Shown in pieces: positions 12,426-50,136 of a stretch of 50,136 nt of DNA. How positions within the stretch are numbered: position 1 is the stretch's first letter; the number at the start of each line of letters is the position of its first letter. The position numbers and the translations under genes were made by a program. The notes under the pieces are model-generated. The model searched no databases, was not told the DNA's origin, and was given only the letters and a program-made list of their open reading frames with translations. Source of the DNA: Leptospirales bacterium (GTDB lineage Bacteria > Spirochaetota > Leptospiria > Leptospirales > Leptospiraceae); assembly GCA_013297885.1 (NCBI GenBank), contig JAAFIR010000036.1:1-50136 (forward strand), read 5' to 3'.

Positions 12426-12489
12426 ATATACTTTAAATATAAAAAAAGGAATCTTGACAAGCTAAACTTATTTGAAGATTCTTGTTTCT

Positions 12490-12634
12490 ATTTTGGGTGA
12501 ATTTTTTTGTAGAGTCGTAACATGAAACGACTCTTCAAAAAAACCGGGCTTTTTGCTACTTCTTGTAGAGGCAGAAAGACTTCTGTCTCTACAAGAAACG
12601 CTTCAATCCCTTTCACTAGAATAGAAAAAAATTT
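12490..12634 (+). repeat. Two-hairpin repeat, type A, left unit of an inverted pair
   Basis: Hairpin 1 pairs 12502-12518 with 12527-12543 (T-tract plus AGAGTCGT and their complements, one T/T mismatch). Hairpin 2 pairs 12560-12576 with 12581-12597, 17 base pairs with one G-T wobble. Between and after them lie the shared core strings GGGCTTTTTGCTAC and AACGCTTCAATCCC. The bases GGG (12546-12548) and CCC (12608-12610) can close a stem around hairpin 2. The 3' tail AGAATAG(G)AAAAAA recurs at 37067-37080. No coding potential is seen. Confidence 0.8.
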
Positions 12635-12773
12635 TTCAAGACGAATAAGATAAGCGAAAGAGATCGACTTGATGTCAAGAAATTGTGAATACAATTTCTT
12701 GACAAGAAAGGAGAGCTCGGTTTTTTGTGGTCACTGAGCTGATGCGAAGTGACACAAAAAATTTGCCCAAAAT
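12635..12773 (-). repeat. Two-hairpin repeat, type B, right unit of the inverted pair
   Basis: On the minus strand this unit has the same layout as its left neighbour. The outer end is ATTTTGGGCAAATTTTTTGTG. Hairpin 1 pairs 12721-12735 with 12747-12761, with one bulge. Hairpin 2 pairs 12673-12686 with 12691-12704, 14 perfect pairs. The closing bases read GAG (12716-12718) and CTC (12660-12662) on the minus strand. The outer 20 bases of both units are inverted copies of each other, so 12490-12773 is one large inverted repeat with four hairpins. Confidence 0.75.
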
Positions 12774-12800
12774 AAGAATTTAGAATTAAAAATTTGGATA

Positions 12801-31809: not shown

Positions 31810-34800
31810 ATGAAATATCTAGCCTATATTTTAATAATTGCATCAGCTATTTTTTCAAGTTGTAGCAAAACAAAAAAAAATTTAATACCTTTGGTTCAAG
31901 ACCAAAAAAATAATAAAACTGGGACAGTCGTTATAACTCCAGCTGTAAACCAAAATTCAAATTTAACTTCTTTAACAATATCTCCAGCACTAGTGACAAT
32001 TGCACAAAATACTCATGCAAATTATACAGCTACTGGTATTTATTCTGATAATTCTCAAAGAGATTTAACATCTAATGTAACTTGGTCAAGTAATACAACA
32101 AATGCAACAGTTGTTTCAACAGTTAATGGAGCATTTTTAGGAACATCGGTAGGTGATGGCAAAATTACTGCAACTTATGAAACATTATCTGCAAATGCGA
32201 ATATCTCAGTTACAAATTCTAGCTTGAGTTCAATTCAAATAAGTGCTCATCCCATAGTTCCAGGTGGAACTACAGTTAATTATTCAGCTATTGGTTTGTT
32301 TTCAGATGGAACGACCCAAGATATTAGCAATTTAGTTACTTGGTCTAGTTCAAACACTTCATCAATGACAATTATTGAAGGTGGAAAAGGATCAGCTAAC
32401 CAAGCTGGGTCAACTGTTATTACTGCAATTGCAGGTCCTGCATTAAATAATAGAACAGCAACTACCACAACTCAAGTTACCTCAGTATCTTTGGTTAGTA
32501 TTTCCATTACTGGTTTGGATACTTTGTTCACAAATGTAATATCTAATTATCGAGCTATTGGAGTTTACTCTGATGGAACAAGAATAGACATTACTAGTTT
32601 AGTTACTTGGTCTAGTTCTGTAACTTCAATAGGAAGTATAAATGATGATTCAAATACAAAAGGTTTGTTTTCAGCAATTTCTGTTGGATCAACAAATTTG
32701 AATGCAAGTTTGAATGGTATCACTGGAACAAAACCTGTTTCTGTTATTCAAACAAATATAACTTCAATTTCTGTTCAACCTACTACAGCAACAATTCCTA
32801 AAAATTACCAAAGACAATACTCTGCAATTGCAACTCTAAGTAATGGTAGTTTAATTAATATTACAACTCAAGCAGTATGGTCTTCTTCTAACCCTACTAT
32901 TGCAGGTGTTTCCACTTCTTCCACAACTGGAGGATTAGCTACAGGTGTAACAGCTGGTTCAATAACAATAACTGCAACTCTTGGTGGGATTTCAGGTACT
33001 GCAAACTTAAATGTTACAAATTCAACTTTAGTTTCAATTAATATTGGTTCAAATATTTCTGTTAATTTAAATTCTACTAAACAATTAACTGCAATAGGAA
33101 CTTTTTCTGATGGAACAACTCTAGATGTTACGAGCTTAGTAACTTGGTTATCAAATAATTCAATTATTGCTTTTGTTAGTAATACTTCTGGTACAAAAGG
33201 ATTAGTTTCAGGTAACTCTGCTGGAACAGTAAATATTCAAGCTTCACTATTTGGAGTAACTAGCAATATTATTCAAACATCTGTAATTGGACAAATCTCA
33301 GGAAATAACCCAAATTTACCAGATGGTTATATCGCAGGAGTTACTCCAACTGGAAATTTTAATGGAATTACTTATTCAGGTGGATCTGATGTTGCTGGTT
33401 TTATTGCTTCTGTGCCTGATAGAGGAACTACTTCTTGTACTTCATTAGGTTCAACTATTTTAGGAATTGTTTCAACAGGTACAACAAATGTAACAGCTTC
33501 GAATTTAATTTCTTCAAATACGGTTGGAACAGCACCAAATTGTTCAGCATTATATGAACTAGGAGTAACTACAAATACAAACTTAACTCCAACTCAGTTG
33601 TCAAATAATTTGATTCAATCTATAGGTGTAAATCAAGTTGGTGGCGTGGTATCGAGTTTACCTAATAGCACCGGAACTGCAACGAATGATTTTAGAGTTT
33701 TAATTCAGGCAACTTATTCCACAACTGGTGCTGAATTAATTGGTGTAGGTGTTAGTTCTGAATCAAATTATCCAGCTAACCAAGCAACTTTAACTAATTT
33801 TTTAAATGGAACAAATATACGAAATTCTAATGCTGTATATACTGCTAAAATAGATAATTTCATTGGAAGCCAAGATCCAAAAGTTGATTTCTTATGGGTA
33901 GTAGATAATTCTGGATCCATGGCAGGTGAGCAAGCTTCAGTTTCAAGTAATTCAGTTACTTTTTTTAATAAGTTAGGCAACAAACATTTAGATTTTAGAT
34001 TAGGTGTAATTGCTACTGGAGGAACAGGAACTGCAGCAACAAAGTGCAGTTTTGATAATGCTTCTTCAAAAAAAGGGCATGAATTATTTGGTATAGGATG
34101 GACAACTTCGACAGAAGGTGCAACAGCTTTTCAATCAAATGTTAATTCTGTAACAACTAGTGGTTGTGGAGATGAAACAGGTATTTATTCTGCTGAAAGA
34201 GCACTTGGGGGACACTCAGGTGTAACTGCAACTGTAACTCCAAGATCAGGTTCAAAACTAGTATTGGTTATTTTATCTGATGAAGGAGATTATTATGAAT
34301 GTTATAATGGTGGCTCAAAAAATGGAGATAGCAATAGCAATCCACCATGTAATAATGGACCAACACCATTTAATTTTTCAAATAATATTTTCAAAAACAA
34401 CAACTACAAAGTTTATACTATAACTGGTTTAGGTTCAAATGGATTACCTGGAACTTGCTCTGACACAGCTTCGGGAACTTCAGCAGATAATGCTAATAAT
34501 GGTTATAACTATTATTACCAATTAGCTCAAACCACTGGTGGTTCTTCAGCAAGCATTTGTAACTCGGATTATTCAGCAATTTTAGACAATATTGTAAATA
34601 ATGCAGCAGCAAATTCTTCAACTTATTCACTTGCTAAAGTTCCAGTATCGACTTCAATTCTTGTGAAAAAAAATGGAGTGATTGTGAATCAAAATTCTTC
34701 AAATGGTTGGTTATACAATGCTACTTCAAATTCAATCGTATTCTCAGGAACAGCTTGGCCAAATCCTGGGGATAGTATCGAAGTTTCCTATACTTATGAT

Positions 34801-34947
34801 GCAAATGTTTCAGCAGGTTCAGGTTTAACAGCATTTATTGCAAACGTAACTAATTCTAATACAACAAAATTAGCTTTATTATTTTTGGTTATTGCTGGTG
34901 CAATTTTTGGGTACAGACAATTTTCAAGAAAATCTGAATTAGCATAA
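31810..34947 (+). CDS. Surface lipoprotein with Big_2-type repeats, von Willebrand A domain and C-terminal membrane anchor
   Basis: AGGGGGA lies six bases before the ATG. The 1045-residue product has a lipoprotein signal (SAIFSSC, Cys18). About five bacterial Ig-like Big_2 repeats of about 85 residues follow (residues about 50-490), each with a strand like YSDNSQRDLT...VTWSS and a Ser/Thr-rich end. A region of unknown fold comes next. A vWA domain has a MIDAS motif DNSGSM (D699, S701, S703) near residues 690-900. The C-terminus has a hydrophobic helix (LALLFLVIAGAIFGY) and basic tail. Big_2 proteins of this group (Lig-type) act in adhesion. Having both a lipid anchor and a C-terminal membrane segment is unusual. 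Confidence 0.88.
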   Translation: MKYLAYILIIASAIFSSCSKTKKNLIPLVQDQKNNKTGTVVITPAVNQNSNLTSLTISPALVTIAQNTHANYTATGIYSDNSQRDLTSNVTWSSNTTNATVVSTVNGAFLGTSVGDGKITATYETLSANANISVTNSSLSSIQISAHPIVPGGTTVNYSAIGLFSDGTTQDISNLVTWSSSNTSSMTIIEGGKGSANQAGSTVITAIAGPALNNRTATTTTQVTSVSLVSISITGLDTLFTNVISNYRAIGVYSDGTRIDITSLVTWSSSVTSIGSINDDSNTKGLFSAISVGSTNLNASLNGITGTKPVSVIQTNITSISVQPTTATIPKNYQRQYSAIATLSNGSLINITTQAVWSSSNPTIAGVSTSSTTGGLATGVTAGSITITATLGGISGTANLNVTNSTLVSINIGSNISVNLNSTKQLTAIGTFSDGTTLDVTSLVTWLSNNSIIAFVSNTSGTKGLVSGNSAGTVNIQASLFGVTSNIIQTSVIGQISGNNPNLPDGYIAGVTPTGNFNGITYSGGSDVAGFIASVPDRGTTSCTSLGSTILGIVSTGTTNVTASNLISSNTVGTAPNCSALYELGVTTNTNLTPTQLSNNLIQSIGVNQVGGVVSSLPNSTGTATNDFRVLIQATYSTTGAELIGVGVSSESNYPANQATLTNFLNGTNIRNSNAVYTAKIDNFIGSQDPKVDFLWVVDNSGSMAGEQASVSSNSVTFFNKLGNKHLDFRLGVIATGGTGTAATKCSFDNASSKKGHELFGIGWTTSTEGATAFQSNVNSVTTSGCGDETGIYSAERALGGHSGVTATVTPRSGSKLVLVILSDEGDYYECYNGGSKNGDSNSNPPCNNGPTPFNFSNNIFKNNNYKVYTITGLGSNGLPGTCSDTASGTSADNANNGYNYYYQLAQTTGGSSASICNSDYSAILDNIVNNAAANSSTYSLAKVPVSTSILVKKNGVIVNQNSSNGWLYNATSNSIVFSGTAWPNPGDSIEVSYTYDANVSAGSGLTAFIANVTNSNTTKLALLFLVIAGAIFGYRQFSRKSELA

Positions 34948-34966
34948 TTTAGTAAAATTCTACTTA

Positions 34967-34998
34967 AAATAAAGCCCACTAGCTAGTGGGCTTTATTT
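34967..34998. terminator. Perfect bidirectional hairpin terminator
   Basis: A 32-base perfect palindrome has 16-base arms (34967-34982 and 34983-34998) with the centre CCCACTAGCTAGTGGG. The arms end in A- and T-rich runs on both sides. It lies 20 bases after the Big_2/vWA gene and 59 bases after the stop of recN on the other strand. It should terminate both. Confidence 0.9.
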
Positions 34999-35057
34999 TT
35001 AAAACTTCTTATATTTAATTTATAACTAATTCATTAAATAAAACCTTGCTACAAAAA

Positions 35058-36883: not shown

Positions 36884-37080
36884 CGGGCGAATTTTTTTTG
36901 TCGCCTAACCCTAAATCCCTTTCCTTATAACGAACAGACTTTATAAAAAGATTATTCAAATCAGATAAAATAAGGTTAGGTGACAAAAAAAACCGAGCTT
37001 TTCGCTACTTTTGAATGCCTTTACCTAAAGTCAGAGTCATTCAAAAACGCTTCAATCTCTTTCGCATAGAATAGGAAAAA
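36884..37080 (+). repeat. Two-hairpin repeat, type A
   Basis: The element begins GGGCGAAT (36885). Hairpin 1 pairs 36892-36910 with 36974-36992, 19 base pairs with one wobble, around a 63-base loop. The core CGAGCTTTTCGCTAC follows. Hairpin 2 pairs TTTTGAATG (37009-37017) with 37038-37046. The closing core is AACGCTTCAATCTCTTTCGC. The bases GAG (36995-36997) and CTC (37057-37059) can pair. It fills most of the 479-base gap between recN and the gene at 37232. The flanks (36753-36883 and 37081-37231) are AT-rich and show no gene. Confidence 0.8.
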
Positions 37081-47690: not shown

Positions 47691-47807
47691 ATAAAATTCC
47701 CCAATACGAAATGATTTTTGGGTTCGGATAGATTTTTATAAACTACAAAAGCAATTTCACTAAAAAATTTATCAATACAAAAAAAATTACCCAACTTAGT
47801 ATAGCTT

Positions 47808-47994
47808 GCGAAAAGGATCGACTCGATGTCAAAAAATTTTTTACACTGAGCATTAGCTTGACTAGGAACTTAGATAGAAGTTAGGGAGGGTCGAAGTGTA
47901 AATAAATTTTTTTGACAAAAGAGGAGAGCCTGACTGAATGCTATCATTTCGTGATAGTATCGCAAGACAGAAGTATTAGCATTCAGATTCGCCC
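47808..47994 (-). repeat. Two-hairpin repeat, type B
   Basis: Read on the minus strand it begins GGGCGAAT (47994 down to 47987). Hairpin 1 pairs CTGAATGCTA (47934-47943) with 47977-47986, with a further CTATCA/TGATAG stem nested inside. The core AGGCTCTCC follows. Hairpin 2 pairs 47827-47846 with 47896-47917. Closing bases AGG and CCT (minus strand; 47929-47931 and 47814-47816) can pair. The right core GTCGATCCTTTTCGC matches the type B unit at 12635. It ends five bases from the stop of the uracil-DNA glycosylase gene. Confidence 0.78.
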
Positions 47995-49764: not shown

Positions 49765-49995
49765 AATAGTTATGCAAAAGTTTTGGGAGTTCCCATTCAG
49801 AGGAATAAAAAGTCCTCTGAATGGTCGGGCTTTTCGCTACTTCTTTTATAAACATGAGACATAGGTCTCATGTTTATAAAAGAAACGCTTCAATCCCTAA
49901 CTCTTGAGTTGAAAAATTGGATAGTATTGAACTAATTTTCAGTATCTAAAACCTTTTTGTGTTGAATAACCTAACTAAATCCAAATAGTTATGCA
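49765..49995 (+). repeat. Short direct repeats flanking the two-hairpin element
   Basis: AATAGTTATGCA occurs at 49765-49776, just before the element, and again at 49984-49995, about 75 bases after its core. Twelve identical bases in AT-rich DNA may be chance or a trace of insertion. The remaining 49996-50136 contains no gene I can support. Confidence 0.35.
49781..49910 (+). repeat. Two-hairpin repeat, type A, best preserved copy
   Basis: Hairpin 1 pairs CCATTCAGAGGA (49793-49804) with 49813-49824, 12 perfect pairs and an eight-base loop. The core GGTCGGGCTTTTCGCTAC follows. Hairpin 2 pairs 49841-49860 with 49865-49884, 20 perfect pairs and a four-base loop. AACGCTTCAATCCCT closes it. GGG (49827-49829) can pair with CCC (49895-49897). 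It fills the region upstream of serC. Confidence 0.85.
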
Positions 49996-50136
49996 GAATT
50001 TGAATTTTATTGGAAGGCTTTTTCCTAAAAAAGTAGAATTCATAAACTTTCGTACATTGGTAAGGCATATTTGTATTGTGGGATTTTGTAGAGTTAGGAA
50101 AAATTGCCTCTTGTTGAGAAACTTTTCTGCTTATAA

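Follow-up and report, generated by a model that had tools for sequence, protein, structure and literature searches.

Head-to-head units of a dispersed three-way-junction repeat in a Leptospirales genome: probable copies of a mobile DNA element with a Flavo-1-type arm

The four-hairpin feature at positions 12490-12773 of the window probably consists of two independently placed copies of a DNA element of about 140 bp that is dispersed and non-autonomous and would be mobile as a folded single strand; we put the probability of this reading at roughly 0.6. Each copy encodes a three-way junction, whose helices covary over hundreds of copies in the genome and whose tips are free to vary. The window, the whole stretch of DNA that was analysed, is a 50 kb contig (C31; 50,136 nt, 26.9% GC), one of 72 contigs in a genome of 4.6 Mb, and encodes an Obg protein with 65-78% identity to those of five Leptospiraceae metagenome assemblies, on which grounds we assign the host to the Leptospiraceae. 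The feature and the other units found in the window are laid out as follows, P1 being the closing helix and P2 and P3 the two arms.

12495-12617, minus strand: unit A, a whole three-way-junction repeat of subtype T1 (5' end 12617, 3' end 12495; profile score 94.5)
12612-12616, minus strand: unit A, 5' strand of P1 (GTGAA), pairs with 12497-12501
12546-12610, minus strand: unit A, P2 arm, a stem of Flavo-1 type whose 3x3 internal loop is conserved and whose tip hairpin (12560-12597) varies
12502-12543, minus strand: unit A, P3 arm, a stem of T-run/A-run with variable tip
12497-12501, minus strand: unit A, 3' strand of P1 (TTCAC), pairs with 12612-12616
12618-12652, no strand: AT-rich spacer of 35 nt, common to both 5' ends
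12653-12768, plus strand: unit B, a whole three-way-junction repeat of subtype T3 (profile score 73.3)
12654-12658, plus strand: unit B, 5' strand of P1 (GCGAA), pairs with 12762-12766 via one G.T
12660-12718, plus strand: unit B, P2 arm, with variable tip hairpin (12673-12704)
12721-12761, plus strand: unit B, P3 arm, from the DNA fold
12762-12766, plus strand: unit B, 3' strand of P1 (TTTGC), pairs with 12654-12658 via one G.T
36885-37066, minus strand: single unit, from the profile scan
47807-47994, plus strand: single unit, from the profile scan
49785-49903, minus strand: unit with P1 GAGTT/AACTC, Flavo-1 at gathering score, within a cassette-like segment, present in multiple copies, at the contig end

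An earlier note on this DNA had described inverted outer ends, four hairpins in mirror order and two halves of different subtype, and these descriptions hold. The outer ends (12489-12507 and 12756-12774) are complementary at 89%, the hairpins lie at 12502-12543, 12560-12597, 12673-12704 and about 12721-12761 (the fourth taken from the fold), and the halves differ in stem sequence, both being subtypes of one repeat: T1 in unit A (GATTGAAGCGTTTC..GAAGTAGC) and T3 in unit B (GATCGACTTGATGTC..GACAAGAAAGGAGAGC). The 284 nt fold strongly when compared with shuffles (z -11.5 as RNA and -10.9 as DNA), and each unit alone folds as DNA into P1-P2-P3 (z -8.0 for unit A and -7.6 for unit B). The P1 helix of unit A, GTGAA/TTCAC, is a compensated variant of GCGAA/TTCGC. 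The outer ends of the pair resemble inverted copies since one and the same 3' box stands at each; that they are meant to pair with each other was not confirmed, each 3' box pairing with its own 5' box. The differing subtypes and P1 sequences support the proposal that the pair was assembled from separate units and did not arise by inverted duplication. Within the spacer lies the 5' flank of unit A, which is weakly conserved (consensus approximately TTTTTCAACACTAGCG); the flank of unit B is a poor fit to this consensus.

A three-part profile, comprising a 5' box, a middle box and a 3' box, identified 144 units in the first 12 contigs (1.19 Mb; 147 candidates, of which 3 were dropped for scores <22) and 82 units in five more contig sections (800 kb) outside profile building, with none in the reversed sequence of either set. 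The total of 226 units in 1,986,641 bases, or 43% of the genome (reversed-sequence control 0), extrapolates to about 525 copies per genome. An independent scan by pairing rules only recovered 152 of the 226 and found none in the control; the 14 extra units that it returned stay outside the 226. Searched against its own genome with blastn, unit A gave 41 matches. The copies are intergenic and occur on both strands; over all contigs, 2 of the 226 lie inside an ORF called by a simple longest-ORF method.

The closing helix P1 is formed by the 5' box GCGAA and the 3' box TTCGC, and its arms are complementary within the unit in 187 of the 226 copies. Among the first 144 units 122 are complementary, against a mean of 41 and a maximum of 54 when partners are shuffled, and 57 of the 79 off-consensus units remain so, with compensated pairs such as GCGTT/AACGC, GCGAT/ATCGC, GCGAG/CTCGC, GCAAA/TTTGC and GTGAA/TTCAC. 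The same is seen in the contigs outside profile building (65/82; shuffles mean 19, max 28). As the profile columns are scored independently, the complementarity of P1 is not forced by the profile. P2 is the Flavo-1 stem with its internal loops (GAUUGAAGCG..AGCGNAAAGC), a pattern conserved in the 226 units: position 8 is Watson-Crick in 219, with all four pair types in use (shuffled mean 70), and the non-canonical A.G and G.A of the internal loop are retained in 222 and 218, respectively. P3 is a stem of T-run and A-run with a variable tip; an intrinsic terminator, in which a GC-rich hairpin is followed by a T-run, was rejected for it, the order here being T-run, hairpin, A-run on either strand. 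This layout is shared by units of the congeners G001-G003 and by those of G004 and G006, where the P3 stems are richer in GC, and a short unit is also found in G038, from another family of the class.

Over the whole genome sample, P2 and P3 tips turn up in varying combinations (for example, ACCTAAC..GTTAGGT P3 tips occur alongside more than one P2 subtype), which looks as if units had exchanged arms. The idea that tips are mobile palindromes in their own right that inserted into units was considered and rejected, since most of the motifs examined across the first 12 contigs sit inside tips: ACCTAAC..GTTAGGT in P3 in 11/11 cases, GACTTTAGTC in P2 in 13/15 and GAGACTTAAGTCTC in P2 in 4/4. Most tip motifs therefore belong to the units. 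Two lie mostly outside tips, GTGGGT..ACCCAC (3/7 inside) and GATACTATCG (5/17 inside), and nesting of a few such palindromes in units is possible.

One alternative to independent placement is a REPIN-like dimer, in which the head-to-head pair replicates as a whole and single units are its decayed halves. All 12 pairs closer than 100 nt are indeed inverted with their 5' ends facing (9/9 in the first 12 contigs and 3/3 in the contigs outside profile building), and the whole pair folds strongly. However, close pairs are not in excess (12 observed, against a simulated mean of about 17 for random intergenic placement) and take up just 24 of the 226 units; a partner-like 5' box (score >5) occurs in the 150 nt upstream of 2/190 single units; and paired units are no better conserved than singles (median profile score 75.1 vs 81.3, p 0.24). 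In one study, REPIN doublets were over-represented and showed better conservation than singlets (PMC3116915). Of the 30 units in the 15 pairs <600 nt apart, 22 have a complementary P1 of their own, and the outer boxes match in only 3 pairs; the partners mostly carry different P1 sequences, and the pair is therefore not one long hairpin closed through its outer ends. Since single units show almost no decayed partner, it is the single unit that repeats and not the pair. On pair counts, conservation, P1 pairing and the singles, we rejected the dimer as the unit of spread and hold it to be very unlikely, and the REPIN-like organisation of the earlier note falls with it. Its expectation for pairs genome-wide stands in part: orientation is non-random, with 12/12 pairs <100 nt head-to-head, but pairs are not commoner than chance. 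Strict pairing of subtype A with subtype B is not supported either: partners differ in most pairs, yet several subtypes combine.

The orientation bias extends to about 5 kb. With simulated placement, about 4 of some 17 close pairs are head-to-head, and 12 or more are so in 5 of 4000 simulations; of the 12 tight pairs, 7 have a spacer of 26-36 nt. Same-orientation pairs <600 nt are absent among the 226 units, and pairs <600 nt of any kind are too few when compared with simulated placement (15 vs ~41). At a distance of 600-5000 nt, neighbouring units face opposite ways in 62 cases and the same way in 19, whereas 5000 strand shuffles within contigs gave a mean of 42 and a maximum of 59 opposite neighbours; the bias is present in each of the two sets (36:12 and 26:7) and when all pairs at this distance, neighbours or not, are counted (70 opposite, 34 same), and vanishes beyond 5 kb (58 opposite, 55 same). 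Against simulated placement, same-orientation neighbours at 600-5000 nt are too few (19 vs ~34) and opposite neighbours too many (62 vs ~34), so that purging of direct repeats explains only part of the pattern. Homology-dependent purging in particular was rejected, as the likeness of same-orientation neighbours is not clearly lower (0.711 vs 0.733, units ≥260 nt left out). The units also have a polarity: of 186 singles, 128 have the 3' end with its 3' box nearer the gene edge; by our arithmetic this alone would make roughly half of the pairs head-to-head, not all. Both the shortage of direct neighbours, including the lack of direct pairs <600 nt, and the recurrence of the 600-5000 nt bias in both halves of the data would suit structure-read recombination sites, attC-like in principle, between which the DNA separating direct units is excised and opposite neighbours are left. 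We consider this improbable: opposite neighbours are in excess beyond the direct deficit, attC core sites are absent, a recombinase was not found, and direct pairs would likewise be removed by ordinary deletion between the repeats or by selection against such pairs. That the alternation spans several kb, with the 3' box set toward gene edges, might alternatively point to a BIME-like architecture element to which, in the host's service, a nucleoid protein, gyrase or a repair protein binds, with alternation kept for its function; in congeners of comparable size the pattern matches only a handful of times, the array is therefore not required in the genus, and such a role appears extremely unlikely.

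A structured RNA, with the units as copies of an RNA gene or regulator, is what the Rfam entry for Flavo-1 would imply. A search of the genome with Flavo-1 (RF01705), in which 150 of 2029 candidates were scored, gave at least 96 matches of up to 61.4 bits, at least 71 of them above the cut-off. Unit A aligns over model positions 1-76 with 33.4 bits, under the cut-off of 42, and unit B is absent from the Flavo-1 matches of the Rfam search. Flavo-1 RNA is listed by Weinberg et al. 2010 (PMC2864571) and counted among the most abundant small RNAs in a 2022 review (PMC9029176). The sRNA class in Rfam, the matches above cut-off, the covarying helices and a larger space on the 5' side that could accommodate a promoter all favour an RNA, as do several transcribed 5' regions in Flavobacterium psychrophilum that overlap Flavo-1 matches (PMC9723704). 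The same study places the F. psychrophilum matches sense or antisense to transcribed regions without preference, many being untranscribed (PMC9723704). In the present genome the copies number in the hundreds, their orientation relative to genes is random (34/31/31/39 of 135 classed, leaving aside 9 units at contig edges), no conserved promoter-like sequence appears at -60 to -15 in the column alignment of the units, and the 26-36 nt spacers of 7/12 tight pairs hardly fit two promoters. The preference for G.U expected of an RNA is missing: G.T and A.C mismatches stand at 23:33 in the skeleton, and isolated stem mismatches, flanked each side by three Watson-Crick pairs, at 17:14 in P3 and 8:4 in P2, whereas 18 tRNAs from the same contigs gave 30:0. 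A first count of P2 stem-tips went in the contrary direction (G.T 187 vs A.C 46) and was set aside because fixed internal-loop positions were counted in it. The near-equal mismatches, the random orientation and the strand indifference in F. psychrophilum speak for a role at the DNA level, or for decay following insertion, rather than for a conserved RNA; the weak point of the mismatch argument is that neutral decay alone also produces equal G.T and A.C. We therefore regard a structured RNA as rather unlikely.

For the mobile DNA element that we prefer, a series of steps can be proposed. The element would spread while one strand is single-stranded and folded, and an enzyme that reads structure, for which an HUH/Y1-type transposase is the natural candidate, would act at P1, at the internal loop of P2 and at the 5' flank. 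Only copies that fold would be copied, and copies would decay afterwards. A head-to-head pair would form by entry of a further unit into an intergenic gap where one is already present, an arrangement that the polarity of the units, with the 3' box against the gene edge and the 5' end toward open spacer, would favour. Polarity would not by itself give a full account of 12/12, and deletion or excision of direct neighbours is the likely second cause.

Comparison with relatives suggests a lineage-specific expansion of the element, judging from pattern counts: the 5'-box pattern has 229 matches in this genome and 4, 0 and 6 in three congeners, counts that are lower bounds because the pattern is tuned to this genome. 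A unit upstream of gcvP is found in the same orientation in this genome, where it is degenerate, and in the congener G003, and could represent old fixed copies. In samples of 200 kb each from G004 and G006 the structural scan found no unit, and the three weak profile matches, one of them in the control, were judged false. In the loci of four relatives that contain the conserved obg-side gene (L061-L064) no unit was found; the far-side gene is not conserved there.

The search for an autonomous partner gave none: the multi-copy gene families adjoining units include no transposase, and none of the transposase families shows enrichment next to units. The genome has a single Y1 transposase gene, on contig C42, which is RAYT-like but below the NCBIfam cut-off (44.8 against 80) and has one unit about 0.5 kb upstream, as chance allows. 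This small gene (L060:1399-1950; G000:C42, ~66 kb) has GTGGGT..ACCCAC palindromes immediately before and after it; this palindrome recurs within the P2 tip of 3 units from the first 12 contigs. Of 13 genomes searched, 7 contain Y1 genes, and the structural scan found no unit at five Y1 loci of relatives. Insertion of the IS200/IS605 type, on the lagging strand, would predict a strand bias; units are distributed 111:115 relative to GC skew, and a lagging-strand bias was rejected. Among viral contigs, 7 contain the 17-mer of Flavo-1, matches that local sequence leads us to judge as chance; phages gave 1 weak match, and in plasmids unit A found no match and a Flavo-1-rich unit 7 weak partial ones. 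Fragments like the C-terminal part of an integron-type integrase lie at C51:2-184 (a contig end) and C20:30206-30385, scoring 81.7 and 79.5 bits against TIGR02249 over ~60 residues, under the family cut-off; matches under the cut-off are also present in 14/14 control genomes.

Several known systems resemble the element. Like REP and REPIN sequences, the units are intergenic, high-copy and folded with variable tips, their close pairs are inverted, and the genome has one RAYT-like Y1 gene. REPs are, however, palindromes of 20-40 bp, as opposed to a 140-bp three-way junction; the REPIN repeats as a pair, the element here as a single unit; the units have no GTAG or CGTC end tag; and no RAYT gene flanked by the repeats was found, the Y1 flanks carrying another palindrome. 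ERIC, NEMIS and BOX are MITEs or small mobile repeats, and the units share with them that they are short, non-coding, intergenic, strongly folding and enzyme-less. MITEs have long terminal inverted repeats, whereas the units share at their ends only the 5-bp P1, their conserved identity residing in internal loops and at the junction. Integron attC sites, which have GTTRRRY/RYYYAAC core sites, are alike in the imperfect hairpin, the conserved base, the unpaired identity positions and the variable terminal structure; the units are three-armed and dispersed, not arrayed, and no GTTRRRY/RYYYAAC boxes appear in the column consensus of 143 units. Flavo-1 RNA has the same stem and internal loops as the P2 arm. 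The Rfam model covers 76 positions and one hairpin, which here is one arm with P1 and P3 besides, the units include several stem subtypes that the model misses, and the sRNA label differs from the DNA-level reading given here. In the portions of the literature available to us, the work on Flavo-1/RF01705 contains no description of P1, P3 or a DNA-level role, and the work on intergenic repeats and repeat orientation no paper evidently describing a three-way-junction element.

It is possible, if doubtful, that the Flavo-1 'sRNA' of Bacteroidetes and spirochaetes is in general an arm of a three-way-junction DNA element, a mobile or recombination site read by structure and moved by an enzyme, whose signature, close copies only head-to-head and opposite neighbours to ~5 kb, is left by its action or by loss between direct copies. 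If this is true, the Rfam family would be largely a mobile DNA structure, and annotations resting on Flavo-1 would need rereading. Covariation of P1 would offer a simple route to complete units in other genomes, and the neighbour-orientation rule would be a measurable trace of element movement or loss, testable in any many-copy genome.

Two other structures in the window deserve mention. A perfect 16-bp hairpin at 34966-34999 (AAAATAAAGCCCACTAGCTAGTGGGCTTTATTTT), right after the ORF at 31810-34947, looks like an ordinary bidirectional terminator. At 49766-50136 lie cassette-like segments of ~220 nt, multi-copy and 91-99% identical, with direct repeats (ATAGTTATGCA) as bounds; like segments are found at the ends of C44, C16, C30, C2, C55, C10 and C1, and at C11:36444-36809. 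The repeated segment at the end of the window was considered as a transposon of units and rejected, being a cassette-like segment that bears one unit. Such segments concentrate at contig ends, and may belong to a cassette array that interrupted assembly; one segment type includes a three-way-junction unit in full, and in L030 such an array contains a DUF1564 gene (PF07600).
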